Part shown: in pieces, positions 33,974-61,593 of the stretch | Position numbering within the stretch: position 1 is the first letter of the stretch | Layout: every line of letters begins with the position of its first letter | NCBI GenBank assembly: GCA_014526335.1 | Contig: JACTAT010000022.1 | Coordinates: 2,759,436 to 2,823,435 of the forward strand | Length of the DNA: 64,000 nt | DNA from: Chrysaora quinquecirrha | Taxonomy: Eukaryota > Cnidaria > Scyphozoa > Semaeostomeae > Pelagiidae | Direction of reading: 5' to 3' | Program-made: the position numbers and the translations under genes | The notes under the pieces: generated by a model | What the model was told of the DNA's origin: nothing | Seen by the model: only the letters and a program-made list of their open reading frames with translations | The model's database searches: none

Positions 33974-35547
33974 CTACTTTAGGTATAGAACTGTTCTTAG
34001 TCTGAACTCTACCCATCGGACCTTCCTAGCATGGGCAACCCTTAATGGAAACAAAGTTCCAGCTAGTAGAGCTCCTAGGGTCACTTTCCACCTGTTTTTC
34101 AGCAGCTGATTGTAACGAGAAAAATACTGAGCCAAGCATTTGGCAGCAAAATAACCTAGCATTTCTACTGAGGAGGGCTTTCTATTATGACCAAAGGCTC
34201 TGAGAAGCAAATTAAGACTGTTGTCATTTTGCAATAGAATGCTGGGCTGTCTTGTCAATTCAGATGTTATTTTGAATTGACTGGAACTGATGTCAGATTG
34301 AAAATTTCTGCCTTGTGAACAATACATATCAATAGCTTTAAAAGATTCAAAAAATGTTTTCCCGTTTAATTTTCTGTCTATAAAAAAGTGGTTCAACAAT
34401 AACCGTTGCCAGGCACAATCATCTATAAGATACAATATCACCTTTTCATTAAATGCTTTGCATGCAAGAGAAAGGGACTTAATGTCACTGAAACTTAGAA
34501 AACTTAACACTCTGTTTAAAACTTTTCTGTCTGCAGAGAGCAGCAAACTTGTCATGTTATTATCATGGTCATTGGAAGAAGAATCACAACTTATAGAATT
34601 AATCTGAAAACTGAATTCCCTCTTGTATACTGTCAACTGATCTCTGTAATTATCAAGAGATTGTTTAAGTTTATAATTATAATGATACCAGTTTGTCCAA
34701 TGCTGACTACAAATATTGGCTTTAGAGCATTCACCAATGTTTTCTAGTCTAAAATATGTTATCATGAGCATTGTACTTTCCCAATCCCATGAATTATGTC
34801 CACCACCTCTTATTTTCTTCTTAGCAAAGATTTCAGTTTAATATTAGCAAAAGGGTTGGGAATAATGCATTTACTTTCTGCCTGCTTCTCAACAATGGTT
34901 GATGTGCATTTACTGATATTTTCAATATGCAAGTCAGTCTAATCATAAAATTGTGCATTGTCTGAACTGTTTCCTGTTTTATGAAAAAGGGGAGAAACTC
35001 CAGGAGAAGGAAAGAGCACATTACCTGGCTTTGCAGAGACTGGAGTTGAAACTTTACTCTTTTTTAGAACAGCACCTTTAGGAAGATTTAAAGGAACAGA
35101 AGAAGAGGAAGATTAATAACAACCAAGTCCCTCAATATCTATCTGAAATAATTCACTCAAACTCAAAAATTCATGAGCATAACACTATGTCCACAACAGC
35201 AAGCCATCACAGAACATTCTTGTTTCAAGCCACTGCCGAATACAATATATTACCATCAAGAGTGCAGCAAGTAGGCCCTTAAATGCTATCAAACAAAATT
35301 TGCGATGATAATGGCCATGTTCAATATTGCAACTATCTACGTTCAATACTCACTGTGGTTAAAAACTCTTGTCTTCTTTGTTAAAAAATCATAGTATAAT
35401 CCTGCACACGGAGACTCGCCATGATGTGAGCCCTCGGCCAACGCCGAACACACTCTATCTACCTCTACCACAGAAACCAAACAACACTGATCCGACTAAA
35501 CTCCAAACAAAATCGTTCACCAGTTTTAAAGAAAATCCTACGTCCAT
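33974..35547 (-). CDS. F-box-like protein of unknown target
   Basis: Three exons are phase-consistent: 35463-35547 (ATG at 35545-35547), 35025-35075 and 33974-34806 (stop TAG at 33974-33976), giving 322 residues. The second exon has a strong pyrimidine tract (CTTCCTCTTCTTCTG) before its acceptor. The last exon encodes GGGHNSWDWESTMLM, a region with many aromatic residues, then an F-box-like helix set (LLLSADRKVLNRVLSFLSF, DIKSLSLACKAFNEKV, CAWQRLL) at about residues 125-175. F-box proteins normally bind SKP1 in SCF ubiquitin ligases; the C-terminal part (SSVEMLGYFAAKCLAQYFSR) carries no LRR, WD40 or other substrate domain that I know. No orthologue is recognised. Its 5' end faces the DHHC gene 1.28 kb away, so a shared promoter region is possible. 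Confidence 0.65.
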
Positions 35548-42145: not shown

Positions 42146-42185
42146 TTAAATTTGATTCTGATAAGCTGGTCCATGTTTTGTTCTG
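41760..42185 (-). repeat. Four ~105-bp tandem repeats spanning the receptor-channel stop codon
   Basis: Units share GATAATCTCTGGACTGG, CAAACAGCAA, GCAGCCAACGGTC and TTTGATTCTGATAAGCTGG. The fourth unit includes the stop codon and last codons of the receptor-channel gene. Confidence 0.8.
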
Positions 42186-42474
42186 TGGAAGGTCCTTTGA
42201 TGCGGTCTCCTTGCATTTGAATAACCCTTCAGATCTGCATTCATAATATCATCAAGCGTTATTTTCCGTTTTATCTTCGCCTCGTTCATCGTTCCAAACT
42301 TACTGACACCAAGAATCCCAAAATTGTAATTGTGTGTTGCGAACCAATGCTCTCGTTCGTTCTCGTGTTTTTCTTGAAGTTCCTTGAACCTTTTTTCAAT
42401 GTCAGAAATCAATTGATTTGCTGTGATACATATTTCATTTTCAATTTCCTTCTCTGTTTCGATGGCCGGCGGAT
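42146..42474 (-). other. Cytoplasmic tail exon and stop of the receptor-channel
   Basis: It encodes a charged, partly helical tail ([30 protein letters not shown]) and ends GPAYQNQI with stop TAA at 42146-42148. The heptad-like E/K pattern suggests a short coiled coil. No PDZ ligand is evident. The last ten or so codons and the stop lie in the first unit of a tandem repeat that continues into the 3' UTR. Confidence 0.75.
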
Positions 42475-45400
42475 CTTGGAAAAAAGTGACCGTTTATAAT
42501 GCACCTTTTAAGCTAATGGCCGGTTTTTTCTAATTTGCGATGATTACTTAAGACAAAAATATGACTTTAGATTCGGATTCAACACCTTAGGCCCAGGCCA
42601 AACGATCAAAAATTGTTTGTCACACATTTGAAATTTGCCAGTCAACCAAAATGTTTTACCGTTAGGCCACATCGCAAAACAATGCTCGTCAAAGATGTTT
42701 GAACTTTTTCAAAATCATCGTACAAAGGAATCTGCTTATTGATGCTTGCCAAGCAATGTTTTGTGACGTGGCAAAACGTTCAAACATTGCATGATGAGCA
42801 AATTTCTAATGTTTCACAAACAATGTTTGATCGGATGGCCACGTTGCAAAACATTCCTTAACAATCAGGGCATGATTGATAACGTTTCTGAAAACTTCAA
42901 AAACACCTGCTTCTCGTAAGCAAAAATGTTTGATAAGCATAGTTTTATGATGAATGGAAAAAAATTTCAGATGTTTGACAAGCAATGTTTGGTCATCTAG
43001 CCAGAGCCTTAGGCGCAGAAAAGTTTAAATGGTTAAGAATCAATAAAAAGATTCGGCAATACTTACTCATTGGCGAAACTTTCCAGCGTTTGTAGCAACG
43101 AAATAAGAATTGAGTCAGCAATGAAATAAGAGAAACAACGACAATTGCAACTGATAATCCAATGACACAGGTATTAAACGTTTTGCCATAACTCAAGATA
43201 CTTGCAAGAATGCTTGGGTTTTAGTGCTTTTCGATTTTCCCTGGACCTACAAGATCAAAATGGAGAAAATTCAAGGTTATAGTTAGAATGAGTCAGACAC
43301 CCTCGGGGAGGTAGTTGGGGAAGGGGGTGCTTAGTATAATTTGGGTACGTGTAATTGCCACCCATATTGGTGGGTTTTGGGACCTGAAATTCTCTAAACA
43401 TGGGTATGATTTTAGCCTCAACCCCATACAAGGGCGTGGGAAATTAAAGAAAACCCTAAAGGTTCACATGATTTGGGGCAAAATAGTGATAAAATCGCAT
43501 CGATAACGTTCTTCGTCCAATTTCAAATAATAGTAAGGCCTAGAAATGCTTTTGCTGCTTTGGGGGCAGGAGTGACGGTAGAGGGGGCAAAGGGATACAG
43601 ATTTCAGATTGTTTTCAATAAATTAGCCTAATTGCATAGTAAATATGCTTACTTAAGCAGCTACTTGATTACTTACTAGAACAGAACAACACGCAAAGAA
43701 CTACAACCCCACCAACCACATTTTAATGAAAATTGTTTTTGTTTTCAATTATCTAAGTATTATCCTGCAATCAAGCTGCTGCCGTCACTGCCCTGCCTTC
43801 GGCATCCCTGATTTTGGGGGGGGGGGAGTTAATTTAATTCTCATGATACAAAAAACAGTACCTCAATGACTTTCGTAAAATTTTTGATGGTCACTGCAAT
43901 CTCATTTCTCTTGGAATCAATGAATTTCTCTAAATTCTTCTGCAGTGGTATGATCTCTGAAGAAAGGACGATGCCAAAACCATTTGACCCTTGAATGAAC
44001 TTGCTTACTTCGATCTGTTTCTCATTGAGACTTTTGATCGCAGACGCTGCCGATAAAGAATCGACCAATGCACCTTGTACGAGGTCATTTTCTAATGCTG
44101 AGATCACTTCGGAGTTATTGTGATACGACACTAAGAGGAAGAACGAAAAAAGCTCGTAAATTATCAGATGGGGGGTAATTGAGGCCTTATTAGGATATAA
44201 GGGATATGGGATAATTTCAGAAAAAATATTAAAAGAGATAAGGAATTATTCTGGACAAAATAAAATGTATACGGGATATTTTTTGTGAAATGATACTGTG
44301 GCGTCGTGGCCTAATCCAGCTGGCTTGTGGTGTCATAAGCTCATCCAGGTCAGCGATCGAGCCCCAGCCAGGTAGCGTCACAGGCAGGGTTGACGTCTCG
44401 ATTAGGTAGCCTACTACTGTGATCCATGTGTGATCCTAGCGATTGGCGCTAAATACAACATTTCACCGTCACCTTCATTCGGTGATAAAAGGGAGAAGAC
44501 ATACAGGGGATAAGGGTTTTGTTCAGGAAAATGGTAGTCAATTAAATAGCGATAGCTACAACTCAGGTAATACGTCTAAGTATTTGGCTGCATTGCAAAC
44601 ATTGTAAAAAGATACCTTTTTGGCTAACTATCGCATTTCTTCTTATTGCCAGATTGTATTCGAATGAATCTTTGATAACTGCGACCTGTCAAGGGCAGAG
44701 TATTAAGCTGAGATGGGGGAATTGAAAATGAATAGGGAGAAAATCACAACACGGACAATTTCCAACAGGACTTTTAATTAAGACCAATTTTTTCAAAGAA
44801 ATTTCTTATCAAAGACATTTTGGCTTTCTCTAGCATCGCTGCCTTAACAGCACTACTAACCTTCATTCCATAAAGCAATGTCGATTTTGACGTCACGGCT
44901 GCTGTAATCATTGAAGTGATCACACCAATGATTATGGAATTTAAAACAGGACCAATCAGCATCCAGAAAATGCCAACTACTTTACCAAGAAAAGATTTTG
45001 GTGTGATGTCTCCATACCTTGCAAGTATTGAAAAATTAATCAAATTAGCAAAGAAAGATAGGCAAGCAACGATTCTGGAAGAAAGTATACGTATCTAGAA
45101 ACAAAGAAACAAACAAACAAACAAACAAACAAATAATAGAACAAACAAAGAAACAAACAAAGAAATAAACAAAGAAACAAACAAAGAAACATATAAACAA
45201 AGAAACAAAGAAGCAAAGGCACAAAGGCACAAAGAAACAAAGAAAAACAAGGAAACAAAGAAACAAAGAAACTAAGTAACGAAGAAACAAAGAAACAAAG
45301 AAAGCAAAAAGAAACAAAGAAACAACGAAACAAAGAAACAAAGCGAAAAGAAACAAAGAAACAACGAAACAAAGAAACAAAGAAGCAAAGACACAACGGA

Positions 45401-48400
45401 ACAAAGAATTACAGAAACAAAGAAAAAAAGAAACAAAGAAACAAAAAAGGAAGGAATGATTGACAACTTACCCTACTGTTGTCATGGTAACAAATCCCCA
45501 CCATACTCCAGTCAGTGTTCCTCTAACATAACTTCCAATGTTGAGTTCGTTGGGATTAACTTTCCTTTCCTAAAAAATAGACAGAAAATGTTACTTTTAA
45601 GACAAAAAACTTACAGAGCATATTGTGGTAAATACACCAAGTTGGTTGACAAATGCAAATACACAAATATTACGCTTATCTTTCAAACATTTTCTCTACA
45701 AATCCCATACTGCACTATGTTGGTGCTCCCTAGATGACCCCTAGATGATGCACTACGGGTTGCGAACTAAGAAAGTTCTTGTCGCAAGCTTAGATTCTCA
45801 GGAGGGCCCTAGCCGCCCTGGCCAAACGGTCAAACATTGTTTGTCTTTATCAAGCAAAATATTTCAACGTTTGGCCCATTGCAAAAAATTGCTCGTCCAA
45901 CAACAATTTGCTTTCATCAAGTGAAAAATGTGTTTAAAGTTTTCAAAAACACTGCGAAATAAGTTAAGCTATTTTAGCTTGTCAGCCAAGTATTCAAACG
46001 TTGCTTCATAAGCTAATTTTAAATGTTTGACAAACAATGTTTGGTCGTTTGGCCAGGGCCTAAGACAGTAGGTAGGAACATAGGCGTAGGTCATGGGACA
46101 GGAGAGCTAAGGTCGATACAAGATATATAAATGCATTTTAGATAATACAGTTAATACATTAACTCACCACAAGCCATAGTAGTGTGCCAATGATGGTACC
46201 CATCAACATCACAATAACTAATGGCGGCCAGATTTTAAAAATCAATCCAACGACTTTTCCACTTAAATTCTCGTTTGTTTTCTTTTTTACCAGCAATACA
46301 GATCCTGGATTATCTGCAACTAAAATGAACTTGAAATCTTTCTGAAATTTCTCAACTTCTTTTCTTCCATAAATTGGCAGGAAAAAATGAGCATTGTCGT
46401 CTACCTTTGCCTTCAGTTCTTTTTCACCTGAAAAAACAAAATTTTTTCCTTACTTTGTGACGTTACAGTGACGTAATTTTCTTTCGAGTATGTGACGTCA
46501 TTCCGAAAGTGTTCAGCATATTAAGCCTCCCAAAAAGTCCAAAATTTTGAAATATTACGTTCAATAGTGTTCAGAACGAGAATAATCAACGTCAACGCGA
46601 CAAGAAGGACTGGCAAATGAACGCACGTAGCACGCATATAAATTTTCCTTCTGACGTCATCGTGACGTAATGAGTAATATTTTGTGACGTCACAACTAAA
46701 GCAGGCATTTTCCTTGACAAGAAACAATTTGAGAGAACAATTTTAGCTCATTAAATTGAGCACGGTTCTTCAGAAAACTGAATCGTACCTTGCCGGCTGA
46801 AAAATGATATTAGCAAAAAAGAACTAACAAATTAAGCATTGCATTTCAGTCAACTTACTTTGAAACTGTCCCACTTTGCCATTTTTCGTCCTATTGAACA
46901 AAACATTGACTGGTCCAAAATTGTGATCCTTGTTACCATTGCAAGTCTGACAAATCTCCTTTGCAGCTTCAGTGACAATGTCAGCCAGTAATCCAACAGG
47001 TCTGCTTGCATCACCGTGTATGTATGGTTTGCGAGAACACCAAGCAACGAAAATGTTTCTGGGACATTGACAAGTTTCTACAAAAAGGAAAAATATATTT
47101 ATGTATAAAATTTGTATAAAAGTTTCTGGAGTGAACTGAAAGTTTAAACAGTCAGCACTTCACGCATCAGTTTCGTCTAAGCCTTGACTCGTTATTGCAG
47201 CTGGAATTGACGAGAACTTTGAACAGAAATTTAGGTGCCAAATAAACTCCTCGTTTATTAATTTTGAGTTTTTTTCCCCACCCCGGACCTTATTAGAACC
47301 CCCCGTTTATTAATTTTTGAAGAAAACATTTCACTTGTGAAAGGAGTAAACTACGTTTATTAAAATTTCCCCACACCCGGACCTTATTAGGACCCCCGTT
47401 TATTAAATTTTCGAAAAATTTCCCACCTACCCCGTTTATTTGGCCCCTGAGAGTAGGAAGTTATCTGGCGAAACTCTACGATTAGCATCATGGCGCTGCT
47501 ACGACTGGAAAATTCTATGATTCATATAGCACGTTGCATGTGGCCCTGGTCAAATGATCAAACATTGTTTGCCAACTACCTGAAATTTGCTTGTCAAACA
47601 AGATGTTTTATCGGTTGGCCACGTTGCAAAACATTGCTCGCCAAACGTTTTTGCTTGTGACGAGCAGAAACTTTAATTGTAGCTTTTAAAAGAATTGCCA
47701 AGCAGTTCTACTTATCAATCTACGTTTTTCGATGTGAGCAAACGTTAACCGGTGAAACATTGCTTTTAAAGCAAACCTGAAATGTTTGACTAACAATGTT
47801 TGAGCGTTGGATCGGGGGCTAAGATTCAAGACCTGCCAAATTTGTTTGCCATGTAATTCGAAAGAAAACTCAAATTTCATAAATCACCCCGGGTAATGTC
47901 TATGCAATGCAGTGGAGGGTGTGCAGTTCGGTGGAGGATATTCAGTACAGAGGAGGGATATCATCTGTACGGTGGAGGATATTCAGCAAAGTAGAAGGAT
48001 ATCATCAATCGGTGGAGGGATATCATCAGTACAGTCTGTACAGTCTACAGTGTCCCTTCACTGTACTCAATATCCTCCGCCGCTTTGCACACCCTCGCCA
48101 TATGCACACCCTCCACTGTACTGTATAGACATTACCCGATGTAGATAAACAGAGTAACTCACCTATTATCACACTGGGACTTTTTGGTCCCTCACCAACC
48201 AACGTAAAGGCAGACACAGCTATCACAACTTCAGTAAACGGTGCGAAACCACTTAAAATTAAACTGTTTGAGTAGAACGTTGTAGTCGTGGAGCTGGTTA
48301 TATTCTGTGTCAATGTTGTGGTTCCATTTCGTGTTATTGTGTAATAAACAGTATAGCCTTGTAGTAATCCATTCGCTTTATTGTCCGGCAAATGATTCCA

Positions 48401-50570
48401 CGTAACCATTATTTTACCATCTCGAGAGAGTAACCTTGCAGTGACGTTGCTTGGTGCGGATACTGGAACTGAAGAAAATGTAATTATTTTATATTTATAG
48501 ATAAAATGATAGTGAATATGCTCATATATAATAAGGACGAAGAGTTGAAAGAAACCAGGAGCAAATTTTGGACCATACATACACACAGTATTTACTGGAC
48601 TAATAAGTTTGATCTTCGTTTGCAACTTTTCTTTTCTTTTATTGACAATAACAGTCTTTTTACCCTTAGCCTTCCTAAAATTCACGTGTTGCACGACCAA
48701 AGCTCCACTCCTGGAGATCTTTTGCATTCGAGTTGAGCATTGAAAATCAAATCAAAGAAAATTAAGATTTCTCAAGTGATTTTCTTAAGAAGTAACGAAA
48801 TTTCCAGTCAAATTTCAGCCTCGTATTTCTACTAAAGTTTGCTCTGATAAAGGATGTGTACAAAATTTTAATTTTTTGAAGAACGCTGGAATAACGTAGC
48901 TACTACCGAAATAGCTTTTTCATCTCAGCACACAGAACGCAACGAGATAACCAGCAGTTTAAGCGACGAAACAACTCTTTCCATCATAACACAGCTTTGG
49001 CCGTTTAGCTCTGTGTGCTGTGTTATGTTGTGAAACTGGTTTCATCTAGTTTTGCTTCACTTAGAGATTTTTTAATTTTGTACCAGAAGTCCTATTCGGC
49101 TAACGTTGTTTACAACCACTTTAGCCCTTGGTCGTGCCCTTGAGGAATCATTGCTCATTGCTTTGATGTCAAAAATAGAGCTCACATCAAGCTTTTCATA
49201 GCACAAAATTGAGAATTCATTTTAAAGGAAAACCTTCTCAAGAGTATGGGCATGTGACCTGAACTAGGTGTAAATAAGGTTAGGTCTATAGAAGGCTGCA
49301 GTTGTCTTATGGTTCAAGGAAAAAGTACAGAAATATCTTTGGTAAGTATTTCAACGTACCATCTTCTTCCGTGATGCATTGCGTCCACGCAAACGGGCCT
49401 ACACCAGCACCAGTAACAGCAGCTACTTCAACCTCGTATCGAGTAAACGGCTTTAGATTTTCGATTGTGAACGAGGCATCCCAGTTATTATTGGTTACAT
49501 TCAACCAATTAACAGCTTCGTTGTATACTTTGTAACGTATCATATGACCAAATTGGAAGCCGTGCAACAGACTTTCATTGACATGAACCCAGCTCAGGAA
49601 AAACGAAGAAGCAGAAAGTGGAGTGCACAGTAAGTCTGATGGGGCCGCCTCTGGTACTGAAATGAACAGGGAAATGGAATAATCAACAGACATAAATGAA
49701 AACAACAAAACAAACGAAAACGAATAAATAAATAATGAAAACCATGAAATAAATTGAATGAATAAAACTATAGATAGACAAATAAATAACCAAACTATCA
49801 GATACGTAAATGAATGAACGAATGAATGAACGAACGAATGAATGAATGAATAAATGAATAAATAAATCAATACATTATTACATAAAGACTAAATAATAAA
49901 TAAATAATTATAAGAAAATGAAGGCTAACGTGAAGAAATAAGCAAAAAAAAGACATTAAAATGAAATGATGACAAAGATAAAATAAATACACTGTCACAA
50001 GTAATCAATCAACATAATTAATCGACGGGGGTTGTAAAAAAAGATGGTACCCCAAAGAGACAGCTACTTACCCCCTTCCTGCGTAAAGCAGTCCACAAAA
50101 GGACTTGAAATCCCATTGCCATCCAACGTAAATGCCAAGACTCGTATCGTATACAACGCATATTCTTTTAACAATGAAATGACCAGTTGAGTTTCATTGT
50201 GATTAGTGGATAACCATTTCCATAAAGTTGTACCAAATTCTTTGTAGAATACAGTATATCCGGTTATATTCTTAGAGGACGTAAAACCTGACCAGCTAAC
50301 GGTTATAGTTGTAGCTGTATGCGAAGTGGCCTGTACTGAAGTTGGGGCGGTTGGAACTGAAAAGAAATGAAATGCTATTCTAAGCACTTTGCATCATGGC
50401 TTCATGCCAGCTAATGGCAAGGTTTATAAGCAAGCAAGCAAGCAAGAATGCAAGCAAGAAAGCTGGCAGGCAAGTAAGCAAGCAAGCAAGCAAGCAAGCG
50501 AGCAAGCAAACAAGCAAATGAGCAAACAAGCAAGCAAGCAAATAAACAAGCAAATAAGCAAACAAGCAAG

Positions 50571-50601
<31 letters not shown>

Positions 50602-53600
50602 CGCAAGAAAGCAAGCAAGCACGATAGCAAGCAAGCAAGCATGATAGCAAGCAAGCAAGAAAGCAAGCAAGCAAGCAGGCAGGCAGGCAGGCAAGCCAAC
50701 AAGCAAGCAAGCAAGTAAGCAGGCAAGCAAACAAGCAGGCAAGCCAACAAGCAAGCAAGCAAGTAAGCAGGCAAGTGAGCAAACAAGCGAGCAAGCAAGC
50801 AATCAAATAAGCAATCAAGCAAGCAAGCAAGCAAGCAGGCAGGCAAGCCAACAAGCAAGCAAGCAAGTAAGCAGGCAAATGAGCAAACAAGCGAGCAAGC
50901 AAGTAAGCAAGCAAGCAATCAAGTGAGCAAGCAAAAGAGCAAATGAGCAAACAAGCAAGTAAGCAAGCAAGCAAACAAACAAGCAAGCAAGCAAGCAAGC
51001 ACCAAGCAAGCAAGTGAGCAGACAAGCAAGCAAGCAAGCAGGCAAGTAAGCAAGCAATAATTTAATTTTCAAAAGCAGAAACAGGTCAGAGATCTTGTTA
51101 GTTACATAGCCCAGGACGTGCAGGGTACCCCCGAGACTAATTTTCTACAACGAAAATCCTTGGCACTCATTTATCGACCTCGTAGGCTAGGATAAAATAT
51201 TTAGACCCAAATATAGAACACTGTAGAATGGATAAAAACATTCACGAATAGAAGGGAAACAATGTACTTCTTTGTACATGAAAAACAAACGTGTCTAGGA
51301 ACTTACCATCAAAAGAGTGAATATCTAGTGATTTTGTAGGCATAGTGTAAAGAAAACCAGTATCCTCAATTGCATGTTGAAGGGTTATTACTTCGTCAGT
51401 TGCTGATTGGTTGAATAGGATGGTGAAATTGCAGTAAACACTGCCTTTGCTGTGGAAACAAATTGACAAAGTCAATGGAAAATAGGCTTTTGAAGACATA
51501 GGTACTTTTATAGTATGTCACTATGAAAACGCCCCTCCAGTAAAAAAGTTTTGTATTTGACTATGATAAATGTCCCATTAAACACTCTGTATCCAGATGT
51601 GAATCAAGAACAGCCAATCAACTAGATTTGGTCGAATGGTTCAATTAACAGGGGCTAAGATAGCACTGTGTTATATCAAAGTAGTAGACAGATACCCCCT
51701 GTTTTGCAGATCGATGCTTCTAATGAACCTTCGATAGGGGTTTCGAGAGCTTTCGGGAGCAAGTCTTAAGACAGGCCGGAGAATGGGAGCATTAGTAGAA
51801 AGTACCAGAGCTTAGGAGAAAACAAATTTCTGGATAATTTATTTTCAAAGAGATTACTCTAAGCACAAGGTTAATTTTGATGGAAGCAGAGAGCATGATG
51901 CTTTCTAAGATGTGAACAAGGGAGCGATGGCTTCTCCTCCTATCAGAGCCTCTCAGATGCTTCGTACTTTGAAGTGTCAGGATTCTAGCGTGCTCGAAAA
52001 TCGTTCCAATGTTCATTGCAAACTAGCAGATCTATACGAATTCAAGACTTTAAAAAATGATTTTGACTTCTTTGATTCCGATCTTTTAGTGTGAATAGGC
52101 CTAACTAAGACACGAGAAAAGAGTTTTACCTTAGTCCATTGATGACAACTTCCTGAATAACTTGCTTTCGGTCTTTATAAAGTTCAAGCACCTAAAGATA
52201 AAGGTAGATATATTAATAGTAAATAGATAAATATCTTATTCGTTCAAGAAGGAATGTTTTCTCTAGTGTTAAAAAATGTATTTAAGGTGGCATGGAGAAA
52301 GTGTTACCTTTAGTTATGGTTATCATATCATATGAGCATAAATTCGGCGAGGCTATGCAGAAAGGCTACGGGAATGTGGGGGTTGTAAGAATAGATCCCG
52401 TAGTATAGACATTATACAGGGGGGTTGACAGGGTAGTGCGAGAGAAGTTCACAACAGAAGCTCATATCTGGAGGGACTAGTACGCATAGTTAGGTACTTA
52501 AGATGCTGCAATCTTAAGGTAACGAAAAGTAACCAGGTAACCAGGCAGGGGCTGCAGCGCAATGGTGCTTCGATTACTTATAATCAAGAAACTTCAACAG
52601 AGATCTTTCTCATAAACAGAAAAAATTTTGAACCGCATCTGACAGACAAGCAATGTATTGCAACGTGGACGAACGGTCAAACATTTTATTCGTCAAGCAA
52701 ATTTCAGATGTCTGGCAAAAGCTGTTTGATCGTTTGGCAAGGGCAAAGGCTACACTAGTGCATATGTGGATTGTGACTAGATTTGTTACACTACTAATGG
52801 AATTGACAAAGATTTATGAAAGACGAATACTTTCTGTACTCACATTTTGTTTGACTTTTAAGCTGAATTCTTTGAACACTTGGCTGTTATTGTGAAGCAT
52901 CGACGGTGAAAATGTTTCGTTGGTGAATTTGACAAAGACGTCAACTTTAGCAGCTAAAAAAGCAACAATAATTCAAGTGTTTACATTGATATTTGTATAA
53001 GGAACCAGTTTATAAAACATCTAATTCTAGATGGGTTGCAGAGATCTCAAAAATTTACAAAAATTATAAAAAATAGATTAGTATACTATAAATAAATCTC
53101 TTCTCTAATTTCGTACAACTCTATAAACCTACTTTTGTGAGCAATTTTTATGTCTTGTTGATATTTTCCCTAATTTCAAAATAGCATGATGTGTGAGATA
53201 CTTGATTGTTTTATAAAAGTTAAGAAACTTCCAAGATATGTCATACTTACGTTTGCAAGCATGTTGGTTACAGCTTCTTTTTTCGGTAAAATTCCCTTTG
53301 CAATTTAGTCCACCAAAAGCTGGAACTGGCGAATTACATTGACGATATCTTGTTATTTTGCCACCACCACATGGTTGATTACAGTACGACCAAGAAGTCC
53401 AGGGACTAAAACCACCATCCACTACAAATAAAAATGCATTAGACTACGTATGTCATTTTATTTAGTTTGGTGAATTGATGAATTTCTCCATTTTTGGTTA
53501 GAAATTACAGTGGCAAAATGGGGAGAATGTTTCAGTTATTGGGTCTCTGAGCTAGTTATCGTATACCAGGATTCAATTGTAGATAGTGAGGGTATATTTT

Positions 53601-54675
53601 TTCAAGAATAAAAGTCATTAACGTACAATGGCATCCTTCGTCTGACAAGAAGGCAAAAGCAAGCCTAATGCAACCATTTCACTCAGTACAAAGAGTTTCT
53701 TCAGAGCTAGAGGTAGTAACATTTTGGCTTTCACAGCACTAATATAACATGTTATCCTATTTTTTGCAAAAAACAAGAACCTGAAAGCTAGTGAATAACC
53801 TGATAACATGGAACTAGTAACCAGGGAGTACGCGTAGCGGTGCGGATGACCGGTACCTAACAATAGATGTAGTAGGCCTGGGCTCTTGCAGACCTCCGGT
53901 CTTTGTGATGCAGCAAAACATTATTTTACGTATGTACTTCTTTCAAAGCCGAGGGCGGAGAGACTATAGCAAATAAAAGCGACACAAACCAGGGCATCGA
54001 AAGAAGTTACATCCAACTGATTCTTTAGATAGCCCAAAGCAATCGAATCCTCCGTTACTTGGAGGGGGGTTGGTGCAAGATCTTTTCCTTGTTTTCAACC
54101 CCCCAATGCAGGGTTTGCTGCAGTTCGACCAAGAGCTCCATTCTGACCAACCACCGTCAACTGAAATACAAATTAGCATTAATAGTCATAACTTCGAATT
54201 ATTTAATACTAATTACGTAGACCTAATGCAACTATATGAGACCCTACATGTATAGTAATCATTTAAATCAACAAAAGTTTTAGATAATGCAGAGAGTGAT
54301 TCATTCTACGAAATATAGAAAATCACAAAATCCACAATACTAAACTCTGACAATGGAAAGCTGAAATAGCTTCAGGGCAAGAAAAATTCCGAGCAAACAA
54401 AGGGGTTATTAGCATTATTGCATTAAATGTTACAGCATTACCTGGGCAAGGATTGTCAAGGCATGGTCCTGACTCCATTATGATGTCATCACATTCTTTG
54501 TATGATGTACAATGGCCATATCTCGTTCTTGTCCCCGGGCCACAATAGCTAGAACATTCTCCCCAATTTGCCCAAACACCTCCACAGTTTGTTACTAAAA
54601 AGTAGAAATGTTATCAAGCAAGCAAAATAAAAGTCAGTTAGTTGATTAGATAGTTAGTTAGTTAGTCAGTTAGTC

Positions 54676-54706
<31 letters not shown>

Positions 54707-57420
54707 AAGTTAGTAAGCTGGTTAGTTAGTTAGTCAGTTAGTTAGTTAGTTGCTTGGTTAGTTAGTTAGTTAGCTAGCTAGTAAGTTGGCTAGTTACTTG
54801 TTTAGTTAGATAGTTAGTTAGTTAGATAGTTAGTTAGTTAATTAGCTAATTAGTTAGTTAGTTCGTTAGCTAGATAGCTAATTAGTTAGTTAGTTAGTCA
54901 GTTAGTTAGTTAGCTAGATAGTTTTTTAATTAGTCAGTCAGTTATTTAGTTAGTTAGTAAGTCAGTTATTTCGTTACTTAGTTAGTTAGTCAGTTGCTTG
55001 GAAAGTTAGTTAGCTGGTTAGTTAGTTCGTTAGCTATTTATTAATTTACGAGCTATTGCATTTAACAAAAAAAAATGTTTTCTTACTATTGCATTCGATT
55101 CCAGGCACACAGTCCTTAAATTCCATGTCTGAGCCAGAACATTTATCTGCTGCAACTGTTTCAATGAAAGTTTTACATGAAGAGTTCTCGTTATTGACAC
55201 ATTTTGAATCGCAACTAAGATCTGAATTAGCCACAACACTCGAAGAAGAGAAATAATCTAAAAATGAAGAAAAGGAATTGTCTTGACATCAGATACACTT
55301 TTTTATTTGATAAAAAACTAAGATTTCTTTCCAGTACCAAAAGTTTCTTCATTTTTTGAGAATTTGGTACTGAAAGTTTCTTAGCAGTCTCTTAGGGGCA
55401 ATCATTGTATTGATTCAAAACAGGTAATTGACCCTTAACATATGACAAACAGAGGATGCAATACAATCTACGTTTACAGTAGCTGCTTGTCGTAAAAATA
55501 GACACTTAGCGTGTAACAGAAGGCCGGTTCTCGAGGCTATATTTCTAATTCTAAAGATTGTTGAGACCTGCGAGATTCTCATCATTTTGGGTCGAGTACT
55601 GAAAGTTTCTTAAACAATATTGATCTCAGTGCCGAGTTTCTTAAACAAAACGAGTTTCAATGAAACTCCACAAAAATGGAATGCAAAATACATCAAGAGA
55701 AAAGTGAACTCTACAAAGCCCAAACAAAACGTTTAGCTTTAGCAGAGGAATTAAAAGCATGAAAATTTCGAAGCTTAAATGCTTACCTTTAGATGGATAA
55801 ATCGAGGTTTTTGGACAAAATCTGCCCTCTGAGATAACAGTTCTACATTGTTCATTGTTCTTGATAACATATCTATATCTGTGACATGATCTTTCTCTTG
55901 ACTGACTATAAAAGCTCTGACAAGCTGACCAAGGCTGCCATGAGCTCCAGCGAAAAGCTAAAATGGAAAATTGAAAAGACAAGCACTTCAGTAAGGTTAT
56001 TAGCATTTTGCAATATATTTGTAGGTTTCTAAGAATTGAGGGTTGGTTGGAATAAGAGAGATTTTGAAGTACATGAATGACCTAATTAGCGGGCAATCGT
56101 AATGACTAAGGGGTCTGAATTCCACTAACAGAACGTCGTAACGAATTCTTAGTAACTGAATAAAAAAGGCCAAAGAAGCTCTTCAAATCCCTATTTTTCA
56201 GAAAAGGATTGTACAAAGCGAAATTTCGCATGTTTCTGATGTTAATAAACATTGCAATATATAGTGATTTTGAGGGCAGAGATTAGTAAGCTGTAAGCGC
56301 CAGACGTCACAGTTCATATCTGTTGGGCGTACAGAGTTTCAGGGGCTGATTATATAAGAGTTTTCAGCTAGAATCTCAGCTCGGTTAACCGGGTTGGAAT
56401 CGGCGTGCGATGATATGAACGCTTCCAGGCGGGCTGAAATCAAATACCTAAGACAAATGACGCCAACATTGACACGCTTTGACACGAAACTAAAACTACA
56501 GTCAAATTGGGCTTGCGCAAAGAGAGTTCCTAGCCCGGGCTGGAAAAAATTTGCGATTACATGAGAAATCTCAGCCCGTTCAAGCGGGCTGGAAATCCTA
56601 GCCCGTCTAGCTGAAGGAGGGCTGGAATTCCAGCCCGAGCTGAGTTTTCAGCCTGGGCTGAAATTATCTCATGTAATCACAAAATCAATTTTGCAGAGAA
56701 TCGACCGGAGAGGAGGGCTGAGTTTGCAGCCCGTTTAACCGGGCTGAAATTCCAGGCCGGGCTGACAACTCTCATAACATCGGCCCCTGACACTGACTCA
56801 AAACAGCACATATTAGATTTGGGCTGATGAAACATTCTGTAATTCATATTTGAAAAATATTTAACACGCAATAAAAACCAGCTACAATTATTCACATATA
56901 TGTCAAATATTTAGAAGAAGTTAAGAAAAGCACTTCTACTACAAATTATACTGCTTATTTAATTAAAGATTGTACATACCCTTGCACTTTTTAGCAAATC
57001 TGCACGATTTTGTTTCAGTATTTGACCCAATGCATTCAACAGGAATGGAACAAAAACTAACCCTATCCAAACTGCCCGTTTTTCCAGATGATATTTCGAG
57101 ACTGTGCAGCATAGCTGAGAATGAATAGTTGCAAGATAGAAGACCTTCCGAGGCTAAAGAAATGAAATAATAACAAAATTCAAATCTGATAACAACAAAC
57201 AAAGATGAATGGTGATGATGATGATGGTAATGATGATGATGATGATGATGAATGATGATAATGTTGATGATGATGCATAATGATGATGATGATGAAAATG
57301 ATGATGGTGGTGGTGAAGATTACGGTGATGGTGGTGAATGATGATGATGATGATGACGATGATGAAGATAATAATGATTAATATGACGATATGATGATTG
57401 CAATGATTAATATAATAATA

Positions 57421-57452
<32 letters not shown>

Positions 57453-60400
57453 TGCGATGATTAATGTGATAATGATGATGATAATGATGATGATTATGAT
57501 TTATGATGATGCAAAAATTAGTACTGAAGAATATTTCACGTCAAGGCAGTATAAGGAACTCTCAACCTCATCTCAGACCGAAGATTCCTTATAAAAAAAC
57601 GTGTAATCGGCCTAGGATGTACACGCTTTTTTTATAAGGAACCACTTTATAAGGAACCTACATGTAGAAGGCCCGAAAATTTAAAGAACTTATACTACTA
57701 GAGAGAAAATAACTAAAGAACTTTTATGTTGAATAGTTTTATCACTGCAAATAATCAAGAATTAAAAAGCCGGTTCAATTCATTTGCAGTCGAAAATCAC
57801 ATAAATTGTACGTTAAGCATGTATCAAATGTTTCCTCGAGTAGTCTCGAGCTTTTCTCACATGCAAGTGTCTCTCTTTTATTGTTAAGACCCCTGTATGT
57901 GCAGTTAAAATTAAGGGACTATTAAGGAACTTTTTGAACTACAATTGCCTTAAAAGAGGTCCAAAAATAAGGAACTTTAAGAACTAGGCCTTGAGGTAGG
58001 TTCCTTATAAAAAAAAGCGTGTATGATTAGAAAATTGTTTGCCTTCTTACCATTTTTCAATGACTCGTAAGTGGTATCCCAGCGTTCTGTAGAAATCCGA
58101 GTACAGTTAGTCTGATTGAATTGAAGCTGAAAATTGTTACACGTTCTTTTTCGTTGTTTGGAACCAAAAAGTTTACCAGGCTCTTTGTTTGCACATGTGC
58201 CCCATTTTGACCAGTTCGTCCAATTCTCGCCTAAAAATACACACCAATATTTAATATAGCAGTATAAATTTATGAAAAAAATTGTACCTTAGAATAACAA
58301 GAATCACGCCGCTGTATGCATAAACCTAAAAAATGACTTGAAATACTTATAACTTAAAAGCAGTACAAGAAACCGTGTAATCGGTATCAAGGCCCATTTC
58401 CACTTCGTTCGCAATTACTGTTCCCCAGTGAATTTGCTGGTTCACAAGTCTCTACCGAACAGACAACAACTTTTGCGACCAATTATAAGTCATAAACCAA
58501 GTAAGACCTTTTCAAAAGGTTGAACTTCACTTGAAAAACGCTTCGCGTTCGCCTGTTTCTGATCGCTAGCGAACAGCGAACAGCGAATGCGAGCGTATTT
58601 GAAATAGGGCTTCAGGAGGCTGAAAACGCGAAAATTGTTGACTTGAGGTACCCTTACCCAGATCCAAAACTGAAACCATATTCAAAGTGATGGGAAATCG
58701 TCGATGGGTGCAGTTGTATTCCTAAAAGGAGTTACATTCGACTATCTCAAATGCTTTTCAATACCTATGCATCTATAGTTTCCAGTTTGTGTTCTTGTTC
58801 TCGGCTCTTTGGATGTCGGTTTAGTTGATGTTGTTGTCGTTGTCGGTGGCGTTGATGTTGTTGTTGTTGTTCTTATGGTTGCTGTTGTCACAGCTGTTCC
58901 TCCTCCATTTTTACTGGTCGATCTGCTAACTTCTGTTGTTCTTGTGGTTGCTGTTGTCACAGCTGTTCCTCCTCCATTTTTACTGGTCGATGTTGCTCCA
59001 TTTTTACTGGTCGATCTGCTAACTTCTGTTGTTGTTGTGGTTGCTGTTGTCACAGCTGTTCCTCCTCCATTTTTACTGGTCGATATTGCTCCATTTTTAC
59101 TGGTCGATCTAATAACTTCTGTTGTTGTTGTGGTTGCTGTTGTCACAGCTGCTCCTCCTCCATTTTTATTGGTCGATGTTGCTCCATTTTTACTGGTCGA
59201 TCTGCTAACTTCTGTTGTTCTTGTGGTTGCTGTTGTCACAGCTGTTCCTCCTCCATTATGACTGGTCGATGTTGCTCCATTTTTAATGGTCGATCTGCTA
59301 AATTCTGTTGTTCTTGTGGTTGTTGTTGTCACAGCTGTTCCTCCTCCATTATTATTGGTCGATGTTGCTTCATTTTCACTGGTCGATCTGCTAACTTTTG
59401 TCGAAGCAGTCGGTAGATTGGCTTTGGTTGAAGATGATGTAGGACCAGTGCCAGAGCCTGTTGTGTCCAACAGTTTTGCTAAGGAAAATAAACAAAATAT
59501 TAGGCCCTGTCCAAAAGATTAAACGTTTTTCCAAATTTGCCTGTCAGACATTTCTCGCTTGTGAAAAGCAGAAAAATGTATTTGAAGACTTCAAGAATAT
59601 ACTCTTAGGTGCCTAATTGCCGGGGGGTCCCAATTAGCAGGAGGGAGGGGTGGGGTTGGATTTTTGTTGAAAATTAATTGCCGGGGGTCCCAAGCCGGAA
59701 GAAAAGGCCAAGGGCATTTCCTCATTAACCAATGTTTCAATGTTTCGCCACGTCCCAAAACATTGCTTGACAAGCATAAGCAGAACTCGTTCGGCATTTT
59801 TGAATGATCGTCTTTTTGTGAAAAATTTATTTCAAAGTTGTTCTCCTTCCCCAGACTCAATTTTTATCTTATTTTGTCCGCAGCCTGTTTCCTGTTCCGG
59901 TTTTTATCAAAACAGAAGAGGTATTCTCTTTCTTGCAGGCACTCCAGCTCGGCCAACCAGTCCATGACCATTTAACTAAAAATCAAGGCATTTAGTTGAG
60001 CAATATATTAAAGAAACCAAAGGTTTTGAACAAAGGTACAAGTTTTCGAGTAAACTGCTGCAACAAACTACAAAGGAGAGTTGGTTGTATGATCAAGACG
60101 ATTGCACAGCAAGTTTGCTGAAAAATTACATTTCCGCCTTAAAGCTATTAAACTAGACATATGCAGTGGAATGTCCAATAACGGATATCTCTATAAAACT
60201 AGTACTTCCACGTAACGGAAAAATATTTCCATCCCAAAGATGATTTCGTACGTAAAACGGAACCTCTATACAGCGGACATATCTCTAGAACGGATAATTA
60301 AATTGATCCTAGAGGTTTCTGTCATATCGAGATTCACTGCAAACAAAAATAACCTCGCTCTTTTGGATACCTAGCTGCATTTAGAACAGGTAGCCAAATT

Positions 60401-61593
60401 CAGCCGTGCTATCATAGGAGATTTTAGGAACAAACTGATAGGGGGGTCAGTTCACGAATCTTTTACAAAGAGCAACACAAAAATTTAAAGCCAAGGTATG
60501 TTTCTGAATAACTAGGGAGAAGAGTTGCATCATCCTGTGATCCTGTGAGCCCCGACTCTACACCCCTGGAAGGACCTAAAATTATCTAAAAGGGGAAAAT
60601 GCGAGAAAGGGATGCCAACCATCCATGTTTTTAAAAATCAAAGCTATAAGAAATAATGGAACTGGGCGTCTCGCAGGAGGAGGACCTTGGTCTAAAAACG
60701 TAGCCTCTTGAATAAGGTGTCTAGGGATAACTCTGCCATCAGATTCTATATCATTGTTGTTTGATATCGACCATGATCTCAACCTGACCTCAAACGACTC
60801 TAAAAAGAAAAAGAGAATTATTTTGATACATAAATAAAAGACAAGAGCAATATATATGTCAGCTAAAGTTTTGGTAAGCTAGAAGTAGAAATCATTTCTA
60901 GTTTAAATCTTTGTCGAAAACATCGGGCAATAAATTTCTGTTACTTTAGCTGGTCAAGCAATGTTTTTGGACGTGGTCAAACGGTCAAACATTTGCTGTA
61001 AAGCAAATTTTAAATGTTTGGCAAACAATGTTTAATCGTTTGGCCAGGGCCTAACTGATGGAAAAGATACATTGGCGTAAAAGACTCTCTAGGGATAACA
61101 ATCAGATTTTGATTCATAAAAAGACATTTACCATGCAAAATTGCCATCACTTGAAATCTTCCTAACGTCAGATTTCGGCTATTTGTTATTTCCAGCATAC
61201 TTTTTTCATGATTCCAGGATTCAGCCACTAACACTTGAGGTTTGAAACTATCATAATATTGAAAGCGGTTGATTAAATTTATGTCTGCTTTAAATGCAAT
61301 CGTGTCATTCTGAGAGAAAGTCTTTTGCTCTAAACTGCGAAATATGTTTAAACCAGTGACTGCCCAAAAGCTCTCCTCATAAATTATCGTGTAGACCTTC
61401 GGATTTTCTGACGGTCGCAAAATGAGAAATGTGATGTTACCGCTTTTGGTAGCTTTTACATTCCAGCCATATATTCTTCCATTACAGGGTATGCGAGTAC
61501 CACTGAAAATAATTTTTGTTTTTGAATCTGACACACTCCATGTCAGATAGTCATATAATCCATCTTTTTCACCCAAGAATACTGGACACTGAG
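42146..61593 (-). CDS. Chimeric receptor-channel: TSP1/SEA/FN3 ectodomain fused to a glutamate-receptor-like K+ channel core
   Basis: Exons (minus, 5' to 3'): 61132-61593, 60686-60799 (uncertain), 58765-59478, 58051-58230, 56980-57153, 55787-55957, 55087-55257, 54442-54594, 53990-54160, 53251-53421, 52844-52953, 52130-52191, 51307-51449, 50072-50356, 49360-49656, 48163-48468, 46859-47077, 46168-46427, 45472-45569, 44857-45017, 43862-44130, 43067-43246, 42146-42474. Codon phases agree at every junction except between 43067-43246 and 42146-42474, where one base is lacking. About 1,730 residues are seen; the 5' end and signal peptide were not found. The C-terminal third has the order S1 - M1 - pore loop - M3 - S2 - M4 - tail of ionotropic glutamate receptors, but its pore reads TTVGYGD, the K+ selectivity signature. 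Predicted role: amino-acid-like ligand gating of a K+ conductance in a receptor tethered to matrix or mucus. The order is seen directly; the function is inference. Confidence 0.85.
42593..43010. repeat. A-family MITE (copy 6)
   Basis: AGGCCCAGGCCAAACGATC to GGTCATCTAGCCAGAGCCTT, in the intron between M4 and tail exons. Confidence 0.75.
43067..43246 (-). other. M4 transmembrane exon with apparent one-base deletion
   Basis: The acceptor at 43247-43249 is strong and in phase 0 with S2, giving [13 protein letters not shown], then a stop. Shifting by one base from about 43212 opens [20 protein letters not shown] and [17 protein letters not shown], a clear TM helix, then [10 protein letters not shown] and a donor that fits the tail exon. 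The exon is 180 bp where 181 are needed. Either one base was lost in assembly, or this allele is broken. Confidence 0.7.
43862..44130 (-). other. Glutamate-receptor-like ligand-binding half S2
   Basis: The exon reads [31 protein letters not shown], then [20 protein letters not shown] and [13 protein letters not shown]. This follows S2 order: a strand with Ser-Glu, the Asp/Glu that binds the ligand amino group (Asp codon 44060-44062), then the YGIA-type strand and final helix before M4. Confidence 0.8.
44285..44485 (+). repeat. tRNA-derived SINE, second family (copy 3)
   Basis: GTGGCGTCGTGGCCTAATCC with a diverged B box (GATCGAGCCCC). Confidence 0.65.
44857..45569 (-). other. Pore loop with K+ selectivity filter TTVGYGD, and M3
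   Basis: Exon 45472-45569 encodes [20 protein letters not shown], and exon 44857-45017 continues [20 protein letters not shown] then [15 protein letters not shown]. The filter is split by a phase 2 intron in its first Gly codon. [14 protein letters not shown] is as found in voltage-gated K+ channels; the position between M1 and M3 is that of the glutamate receptor pore. The donor at 44857 is chosen because it gives the phase for S2 (LLYGMKV-MSYHNNSE). Confidence 0.88.
45098..45452 (+). repeat. (AAAC/AAAG)n satellite between the two filter exons
   Basis: AAACAAAGAAACAAAG repeats fill most of the 454-bp intron that splits the K+ filter. Confidence 0.95.
45812..46066. repeat. A-family MITE (copy 7)
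   Basis: GCCCTGGCCAAACGGTCAA to TTGGTCGTTTGGCCAGGGCCT. Confidence 0.8.
46168..47077 (-). other. Glutamate-receptor-like ligand-binding half S1 and helix M1
   Basis: Exon 46859-47077 reads [16 protein letters not shown] then [21 protein letters not shown], like the GF(x)iDLl(x)xiA strand-helix of periplasmic-binding folds. Exon 46168-46427 reads [20 protein letters not shown] and ends with the hydrophobic M1 segment ([20 protein letters not shown]). The Arg in GRKEVEKF (codon 46363-46365) sits where the REE Arg of AMPA/NMDA receptors binds the ligand alpha-carboxyl. Confidence 0.82.
46493..46692. promoter_or_regulatory. Cluster of CRE palindromes TGACGTCA in an intron
   Basis: Perfect TGACGTCA at 46493-46500, 46652-46659 and 46685-46692, with TGACGTAA-like half sites near 46459, 46469 and 46662. 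This is the canonical CREB/ATF site. They lie in the intron between the two S1 exons. They may be an intronic enhancer or the ends of a small palindromic repeat. Confidence 0.4.
47539..47822. repeat. A-family MITE (copy 8)
   Basis: TGGCCCTGGTCAAATGATC to TTTGAGCGTTGGATCGGGG. Confidence 0.7.
47888..48142. mobile_element. Hairpin element beside an FN3 exon
   Basis: Left CGGGTAATGTCTATGCAATG, CAGTGGAGGGTGTGCA; right TGCACACCCTCCACTGTACTG, TATAGACATTACCCG. The inner repeats are GGTGGAGGATAT units. It ends 20 bp from the FN3-3 donor. Confidence 0.8.
48163..50356 (-). other. Three fibronectin type III domains
   Basis: One exon each: 50072-50356 ([27 protein letters not shown]), 49360-49656 ([40 protein letters not shown]) and 48163-48468 ([51 protein letters not shown]). 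All have the Pro-start, central Trp and Tyr corner of FN3 folds and phase 1-1 borders. Confidence 0.92.
50415..51062 (+). repeat. (AAGC)n microsatellite, ~650 bp
   Basis: AAGCAAGCAAGC with sparse changes, in the intron between the SEA and first FN3 exons. It makes Leu/Ala/Cys and Lys/Gln/Ser frames that are not genes. Confidence 0.97.
51307..52953 (-). other. SEA domain with probable autocleavage site
   Basis: Exons 52844-52953 ([33 protein letters not shown]), 52130-52191 ([20 protein letters not shown]) and 51307-51449 ([28 protein letters not shown]) build a SEA fold. KGSVYC aligns with the GSVVV motif of MUC1-type SEA domains, where the chain breaks itself between Gly and Ser (here the border 51443/51442). 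It lies between the TSP1 array and FN3 domains. Confidence 0.82.
54640..55035 (+). repeat. (GTTA)n microsatellite
   Basis: TTAGTTAGTTAG over about 400 bp between two Cys-rich exons. Confidence 0.95.
55293..55660. repeat. B-type MITE (AAGTTTCTTA variant)
   Basis: It starts TACACTTTTTTATTTGATAAA and has repeated AAGTTTCTTA. The right end is unclear. Confidence 0.5.
56338..56790. repeat. Palindromic element with AGCCCGGGCTGAAA motifs
   Basis: Left CAGGGGCTGATTATATAAGAG and right CTCATAACATCGGCCCCTG are inverted. The interior repeats GGGCTGGAATTCCAGCCC. Confidence 0.7.
57203..57515 (+). repeat. GAT microsatellite
   Basis: (GAT)n with GGTGGTGGTGA interruptions, 50 bp from a Cys-rich exon. Confidence 0.95.
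57616..58023. mobile_element. B-family MITE (reference copy)
   Basis: The ends TACACGCTTTTTTTATAAGG and CCTTATAAAAAAAAGCGTGTA are near-perfect inverted repeats. It ends 27 bp from the donor of TSP1 exon 58051. Confidence 0.85.
58765..59478 (-). other. Mucin-like Thr/Ser tandem-repeat exon
   Basis: A single 714-bp exon encodes about 237 residues rich in Thr, Ser, Asn and Gly. A unit near 31 residues, with the core RSTSKNG(A)TSTSKNGGG and [13 protein letters not shown], occurs about five to six times, and the DNA copies are about 93 bp. It ends with [19 protein letters not shown]. Dense O-glycosylation is expected, giving a stiff extended stalk. Spliced directly to 58051-58230 it stays in frame ([12 protein letters not shown]). 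Confidence 0.8.
60686..60799 (-). other. Possible exon, unknown domain (uncertain)
   Basis: It follows a good acceptor (TTTTTCTTTTTAG) and reads [18 protein letters not shown] in phase 1-1, so it can be included or skipped without a frameshift. The donor (AAG|GTCCTC) is weak and the frame runs on to a TAG further down. It could be an alternative exon or chance. Confidence 0.35.
60944..61054. repeat. A-family MITE, right half only
   Basis: GGTCAAGCAATGTTTTTGG to TTTAATCGTTTGGCCAGGGCC. It ends 78 bp from the first receptor exon. Confidence 0.65.
61132..61593 (-). other. N-terminal ectodomain of the receptor-channel
   Basis: The exon encodes 154 residues from [11 protein letters not shown] through [20 protein letters not shown] to [14 protein letters not shown]. 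The pattern I-x-C-x-G-x-I-x-GW with a following ITFLILRP strand suggests a beta-sandwich lectin-like fold, but I cannot name the family. The exon opens in phase 1, so an upstream exon with the signal peptide must exist; none is convincing up to 64000. Confidence 0.7.

Follow-up and report, generated by a model that had tools for sequence, protein, structure and literature searches.

The question raised by this locus is whether a single animal gene can join an adhesion-type ectodomain to a glutamate-receptor-type channel with a potassium selectivity filter. The window, that is the whole stretch of 64,000 nucleotides of the Chrysaora quinquecirrha genome that was analysed (contig JACTAT010000022.1), holds on its minus strand, from 61593 down to 42146, a gene in which TSP1, SEA and FN3 exons precede those of a core of the glutamate receptor type with the filter TTVGYGD. 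What the sequence itself shows is the order of the exons, the filter, the two lobes of the binding core (by profile alignment) and the recurrence of this arrangement in an orthologue and in paralogues. It is probable that the gene encodes one such chain, likely to form a tetrameric ligand-gated K+ channel that damps activity.

Exon chain and domain order

The exons of the gene model were selected by eye, on the basis of open frames and splice signals, and then verified by script, and the model is known from DNA alone. Between 61593 and 43862 the chain comprises 21 exons, every one of which has an AG acceptor and a GT donor by script check, and these join with agreement of phase at all 20 junctions to give a stop-free reading of 1547 amino acids. 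In this model Pfam lists fn3 (three stretches, 1.8e-30), TSP_1 (three stretches, 1.1e-18), Ion_trans_2 (5.4e-12) and SEA, the last at 26.8 bits, barely above its cut-off of 26.4. A sequence-only reading of the window had proposed the coordinates and a domain order of TSP1 modules, SEA, three FN3 domains, S1 (lobe 1), the membrane helix M1, the TTVGYGD pore, M3 and S2 (lobe 2), and both were borne out by the exon chain and by Pfam; it had left out the first exon, X1 (61132-61593), and a mucin-like exon (58765-59478).

Exon X1 encodes an N-terminal extracellular domain of unnamed type (open frame with AG and GT signals, phase 1 at its exit), which aligns separately with residues 34-185 of P0001, an orthologous protein predicted from another source, at 35% identity, while the mucin-like exon encodes Thr/Ser-rich repeats that align with a Thr-rich stretch of P0001. 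There follow, on the minus strand as is the whole gene, two TSP1-like modules recognised by eye (TSPb, 58051-58230, and TSPc, 55787-55957), the first succeeded by a Cys-containing module placed by the exon chain (exon C1, 56980-57153) and the second by a Cys-rich module placed by the exon chain and the P0001 alignment (exon C2, 55087-55257), and then three TSP1 modules found by Pfam, TSPd (54442-54594), TSPe (53990-54160) and TSPf (53251-53421), which are 57%, 70% and 68% identical to P0001, respectively. The SEA domain is spread over three exons, of which the first two (52844-52953 and 52130-52191) rest on Pfam and the third (51307-51449) on the exon chain, and the FN3 domains, again by Pfam, lie at 50072-50356, 49360-49656 and 48163-48468.

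The channel part begins with a first S1 exon (46859-47077), which contains the cysteines of ETCQCP and CQTC, and a second S1 exon that also carries M1 (46168-46427), both assigned by profile alignment and M1 by hydropathy. The pore exon (45472-45569), ending in the TMTTV-GG of the filter, and the exon with the filter end YGD and M3 (44861-45017) were placed by the exon chain and by comparison with paralogues, and the two S2 exons (44616-44685 and 43862-44130, the latter with the aspartate of GALVDS) by profile alignment.

Two further observations concern the 5' part of the gene. A TSP1-like exon remnant at 59975-59873 of the window runs into a stop and has no donor, and P0001 has at this place an intact TSP1-like stretch followed by two CUB domains. 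About 11 kb upstream of X1, on the same strand, lies an SEA-like open frame with GSVVV (stretch L021; weak profile match, E 0.006), which belongs either to a neighbouring gene or to further 5' exons of the receptor gene.

Evidence for one gene rather than two

P0001 and the window model form a single continuous alignment of 1286 residues (48% identity) that extends from the mucin-like repeats as far as the end of S2, and although Pfam does not list SEA in P0001 at E 0.01, the stretch concerned is 50-57% identical to the SEA exons of the window. Stretches of 10 to 30 kb were examined at nine paralogous loci of this genome, using domain profiles made from the family's own proteins, and at five of the loci (C224a, C420, C1, C323 and C224b) TSP1, SEA, FN3 and channel exons occur in this order on one strand; C124a has FN3 and channel exons, and C190, C124b and C213 have channel exons only, within the stretch read. 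The last FN3 exon has a phase 1 donor and the S1 exon a phase 1 acceptor in all six paralogues in which both were read, exactly as in the window. The filter is interrupted as TTVG|YGD by a phase-2 intron within the first glycine codon of GYG, and the pore exon ends at the identical position of the filter in the window and in eight paralogues, including C1, which has TTL for TTV; an acceptor matching the pore exon was found at nine of the ten loci tested, the miss being C124a. Pore and S1 matches indicate at least 12 family loci in the genome. In the databases, FN3 and channel are combined in ten long proteins (P0001, P0002, P0003, P0005, P0006, P0008, P0168, P0183, P0186 and P0187), nine of which, P0003 being the exception, also contain TSP1.

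The exon chain might nevertheless have joined two neighbouring genes, one for a TSP1/SEA/FN3 adhesion protein and the next for a separate K+-signature channel, given that the gene model derives from DNA only, that channel-only relatives of about 480-560 amino acids exist, and that C190, C124b and C213 lack adhesion exons in the stretch read. This explanation is at odds with the ten long proteins, with the FN3-to-S1 phase shared by six of six paralogues and with the finding, described below, that head type follows the channel tree; two separate genes were rejected on the junction phases, the orthologue and the paralogues, and we regard this alternative as very improbable. The domain order of the window gene, found again in P0001, in other long database proteins and at five loci of the same genome, supports, as far as sequence can, the assignment of the TSP1/SEA/FN3 head and the channel to one gene.

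One paralogous region departs from the single arrangement, as at C224:3779000-3808999 (L023-L025) two consecutive copies of the TSP1-SEA-FN3 exon set precede a single channel, which is a tandem duplication of part of the ectodomain.

The channel core

A profile alignment (hhalign) of the channel part to bacterial GluR0-like proteins spans both lobes over 306 columns. The hydropathy scan of this part gave only the M1 and M3 segments, plus M4 in a frame of its own, and the order M1-P-M3 is present, the side from which the pore loop (P) enters being deduced from the extracellular position of S1 and S2. No S1-S4 voltage sensor was detected by hydropathy before the pore, which is preceded by binding-core exons instead, and no Pfam family of the amino-terminal domain (ATD) occurs in the 1547-residue model or in P0001, TSP1/SEA/FN3 being located in that position.

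The predicted structure of a relative, P0185, has lobes with predicted local distance difference test (pLDDT) values mostly above 90, but this relative is about 30% identical to the window protein in the channel and its structure is not that of the window protein. In a VIA-align comparison of the P0185 model, 41 of 50 rows were of the ionotropic glutamate receptor (iGluR) type by manual count and nine, including the top row, were FN3; the iGluR rows match whole core-plus-membrane chains, with a high root-mean-square deviation (5.5 to 12.1 at most), a consequence of aligning several domains jointly. Foldseek on the same model returned no iGluR by title among the best 50 of 1913 rows, all of which were FN3 proteins or FN3 receptors, and the core was therefore judged by VIA-align. 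A single-sequence structure prediction of P0007 was not usable (mean pLDDT 39.9), and NCBIfam gave for five relatives pore-type matches only, far below the cut-off.

The best Pfam and PDB sequence matches of the channel are K+ channels, with Ion_trans_2 over its cut-off and Lig_chan under it, as would be expected of an ordinary two-helix or voltage-gated-type K+ channel that carries an unrelated ectodomain and is not of the glutamate receptor type. Those matches cover the pore part only, however, whereas both lobes match GluR0-like bacteria, the relative's model matches iGluRs over the whole core and membrane part, and in the paralogues that were read through (C224a, C1, C323, C190 and C124a) the pore lies between S1 and S2 exons. 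Because the lobes match too, an ordinary K+ channel was rejected as extremely improbable. A K+-signature core of the glutamate receptor type behind TSP1/SEA/FN3 is supported by the GluR0-like profile match and the relative's model, and also by the paralogues and the orthologue.

Weighing the reading of the gene as a working receptor channel

Several observations, the distance of the modelled relative among them, speak against a working glutamate-receptor-type K+ channel at this locus. In the search with hidden Markov models (HMMs), where fn3, TSP_1 and SEA exceeded their cut-offs, Lig_chan remained at 24.8 bits for the channel part alone against a cut-off of 30.8 and was unlisted for the whole model, although the relatives P0146 (37.3 bits), P0188 (43.2 bits) and P0021 (32.8 bits) lie above this cut-off. 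A Lig_chan search of the genome yielded 23 matches that include the paralogue C190 and not the window gene, so surveys built on Pfam Lig_chan would presumably pass this gene by. In a plain HMM search most bacterial matches comprise the pore and part of lobe 2, and outside eight long proteins only four of 151 matched stretches span the near-whole core. There is no convincing candidate for a signal-peptide or start-codon exon within 12.4 kb upstream, which leaves the 5' end of the gene model open.

To the same side belongs the M4 exon (43067-43246), located by reading frames and hydropathy, which runs into a stop when entered in the required phase 0, its hydrophobic helix lying one frame off the entry phase in the window copy, and which has a single match in the 328-Mb assembly. 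At the S2-to-M4 junction the paralogues C224a, C190 and C124a (three of three looked at) are joined in phase 0-0 with ordinary splice signals, and P0001 reads through. The cytoplasmic tail exon (42146-42474), which contains the stop codon, continues the frame of the M4 helix, and over 79 amino acids its product is 56% identical to the P0001 tail. The single phase-consistent chain of the sequence-only reading accordingly stands for 21 exons down to 43862 and fails at the M4 exon, where no good pair of donor and acceptor rescues the frame. Splice alternatives that would restore it consist of a weak donor after 43857 (GTTTTT) and acceptors without a pyrimidine tract, and were judged unlikely. The offset may mean that the window copy is misassembled there, that it is a recent null allele, or that it encodes a form ending after S2 without M4.

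The M4 offset, the stop without a donor in the TSP1-like stretch near 59975 and the missing start exon would all be in keeping with this copy being a null allele or a pseudogene in decay, within a family whose other members function. Yet 21 other exons are open with intact splice sites, the M4 helix and the tail, with its match to the P0001 tail, are still coding-like, and all residues that are invariant in a nine-row alignment, of which the window is one row, have been retained in the window, and we consider decay of this copy unlikely.

The ligand site provides the remaining contrary evidence. In a MAFFT alignment the column of the agonist arginine has R in 18 of 20 bacteria and in none of the 62 family rows (Y in 38, F in 17), whereas at the lobe-2 aspartate D occurs in all 20 bacteria and in 59 of 62 family rows, as it does in the window, and Ser or Thr near the start of lobe 2 is found in 18 of 20 and 60 of 62, respectively; P0022 was counted in neither group, and the rows of this alignment do not include the window. 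In the hhalign register, with a gap of six in lobe 1, the R of YGRKE of the window does fall at the arginine column, but R is seen by eye in only three of nine rows and the lobe-1 register is uncertain. The lack of conservation of the agonist arginine makes a standard alpha-amino acid an improbable ligand, and glutamate a doubtful one; the residues point to a cleft that looks alive yet not built for standard alpha-amino acids.

Other SEA domains cleave themselves, and the third SEA exon of the window has GSVY at what we take to be the place of the known self-cleavage motif. Of the 12 long relatives looked at, seven have GS[VI] at this place, as do, with GSV, three of the five TSP/SEA paralogues (C420, C1 and C224b, not C224a or C323). 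If self-cleavage occurs, head and channel would be held together non-covalently and pull could matter. A channel that opens when the adhesion head is pulled and the force is transmitted along the SEA/FN3 stalk, with the clamshell reduced to a scaffold that has lost ligand gating, would suit the unconserved arginine, the recurrent GS[VI] and the adhesion-type modules; the near-invariant lobe-2 Asp and Ser/Thr nevertheless argue for a living ligand site, and many relatives have no listed ectodomain, and gating by pull appears to us quite unlikely.

A cnidarian family with several heads

The search with the P0007 region retrieved 65 proteins at E <=1e-10 (P0007 counted) out of 7993 candidates scored. 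Named members come from Hydra, Hydractinia, Clytia, Rhopilema, Acropora, Stylophora, Pocillopora, Oculina, Porites, Nematostella, Actinia, Actinostola, Dendronephthya and Paramuricea, and a Montipora member came from the first search, not from that with the P0007 region. The filter TVGYGD is present in 72 of 73 family proteins, P0192 having TVGFGD. A hemichordate protein also retrieved with the P0007 region, P0200 of Glandiceps talaboti, has TMTTVGYGD and a long branch in the tree, and the family may thus reach beyond Cnidaria. Cnidarian members, in which the filter is kept, bear in the deposits such names as 'Cubilin', 'Potassium voltage-gated channel subfamily F member 1' or 'uncharacterized', taken from single domains or amounting to no name at all. 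Many relatives have CUB-Ig, EGF or no listed ectodomain, and the EGF-repeat heads of P0188 and P0189 form a third type beside the FN3 type and CUB-Ig.

A maximum-likelihood tree was made from 84 channel regions, canonical iGluRs and AvGluR1 not being among its rows. Thirteen FN3-head rows including the window, together with the unlabelled P0191, lie on one side of a branch (95/87), and 22 rows labelled CUB-Ig fall together (98/90), CUB being listed in 21 of them and P0145, with no head listed, being labelled with its kin; the two groups are joined (99/98), and the window pairs with P0001 (100/94). Head type tracks the channel tree, as expected if each fusion arose once and was then inherited. 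The window gene is a member of a large and apparently undescribed cnidarian-wide family of K+-filter glutamate-receptor-type channels with adhesion-type heads.

Two groups of database entries deserve separate mention. In P0004 of Actinia tenebrosa a polypeptide GalNAc-transferase is joined to a CUB-Ig-channel of the family, which probably represents two genes merged in annotation. Eight environmental proteins of 456-506 amino acids (P0022-P0026, P0028, P0036 and P0068) have Ion_trans_2, with Lig_chan in six of the eight and SBP_bac_3 listed in none; in the seven that were read an extra hydrophobic segment seems, by eye, to follow S2, and such proteins are perhaps further eukaryotic K+-type receptors.

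Other features of the window

A AAACATTGTTTGTCAAACAT-like motif has 17 matches in the window with up to three mismatches, against 0.03 expected. Besides single copies, these include inverted pairs about 230-400 bases apart (12114/12511, 16608/16835, 20655/21032 and 39556/39920), which look as if they were the ends of a small mobile element. On the minus strand at 33974-34837 there is an open frame of 287 amino acids with an F-box-like stretch just below the Pfam cut-off, and an Rfam search of the window gave no match.

Comparison with known receptors and implications

In excerpts of PMC12332018 and PMC11479355, GluR0 and AvGluR1 are named as K+-signature glutamate receptors; there GluR0 is given without M4 and ATD (PMC11479355), and AvGluR1 as eukaryotic with a K+ signature and a four-helix plan (both sources). 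The membrane orientation of GluR0 is the reverse of that of KcsA according to an excerpt of PMC13099474, which fits the topology proposed below, and an excerpt of PMC2950845 records the view of 2010 that, to the best of its authors' knowledge, a glutamate site and a K+ filter were combined only in bacteria. Neither GYG(D) nor fibronectin was found when the main text of two surveys (PMC6307864 and PMC12226733) was searched for these terms. Among the matches listed in the literature search, no title or abstract indicated a glutamate-receptor-type channel with a K+ filter, whether from Cnidaria or combined with FN3/TSP1, most subscription journals lying outside the search. The sequence-only reading knew of no described receptor of this plan, which agrees with the literature searched, but a large cnidarian family was already present in the databases.

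GluR0 of Synechocystis and the bacterial GluR0-like proteins share with the window protein the S1-M1-P-M3-S2 order and the K+ filter. GluR0 as described in excerpt lacks M4 and an ATD, whereas the window gene has a long ectodomain and its relatives have M4, and the bacterial kin keep the arginine column in the MAFFT alignment whereas the cnidarian family does not. GluR0 is not known to have an adhesion head. AvGluR1 of Adineta vaga, compared by its excerpted description only, resembles the window protein in being eukaryotic and in its K+ signature, and the relatives with M4 in its four-helix plan, but no TSP1/SEA/FN3 or CUB/Ig ectodomain is reported for it in the literature searched. The animal iGluRs (AMPA, kainate, NMDA, delta and epsilon) share core and membrane fold with the model of P0185, but they have a non-K+ filter and, where the window gene has adhesion modules, an N-terminal ATD, and Lig_chan does not detect the window gene. 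Plant GLRs such as AtGLR3.4 likewise differ in having an ATD and no K+ filter.

We infer for the window gene a single transcript, K+ selectivity, ligand gating and an adhesion role. In the chain proposed here the head and the binding core would be extracellular, M1 would lead inward, the pore loop would enter from the inside and M3 would lead out to an external lobe 2, after which M4 would return inward to a helical tail. The adhesion-type head would hold the channel at a cell-matrix or cell-cell border, where a small extracellular ligand, probably no standard alpha-amino acid, would close the S1/S2 clamshell; closure would pull M3 open, K+ would exit along its gradient and the membrane would hyperpolarise. 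More tentatively, it is possible that the family constitutes a cnidarian class of adhesion-receptor K+ channels that retained the bacterial-type filter, exchanged the ATD for heads of the TSP1/SEA/FN3, CUB/Ig or EGF kind and lost the arginine in favour of another ligand; in such channels contact or tension at the matrix would modulate a fast inhibitory K+ current by way of a self-cleaving SEA stalk.

In animals, Cl- channels are the main carriers of fast inhibition, and channels of the glutamate receptor type mostly excite. A K+ filter on an animal receptor core with adhesion heads, in anthozoans and medusozoans alike, would provide a direct inhibitory route from ligand to K+, and a class of adhesion-receptor K+ channels, if true, would represent direct ligand-gated K+ inhibition that animals were not thought to use. 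As a living intermediate, the family would furthermore bear on the long-standing question of the relationship between K+ channels and glutamate receptors, and it would be a natural example of an iGluR ectodomain rebuilt from modules; its members from Hydra, Nematostella, Porites and Rhopilema are already in the databases under empty or unrelated names.

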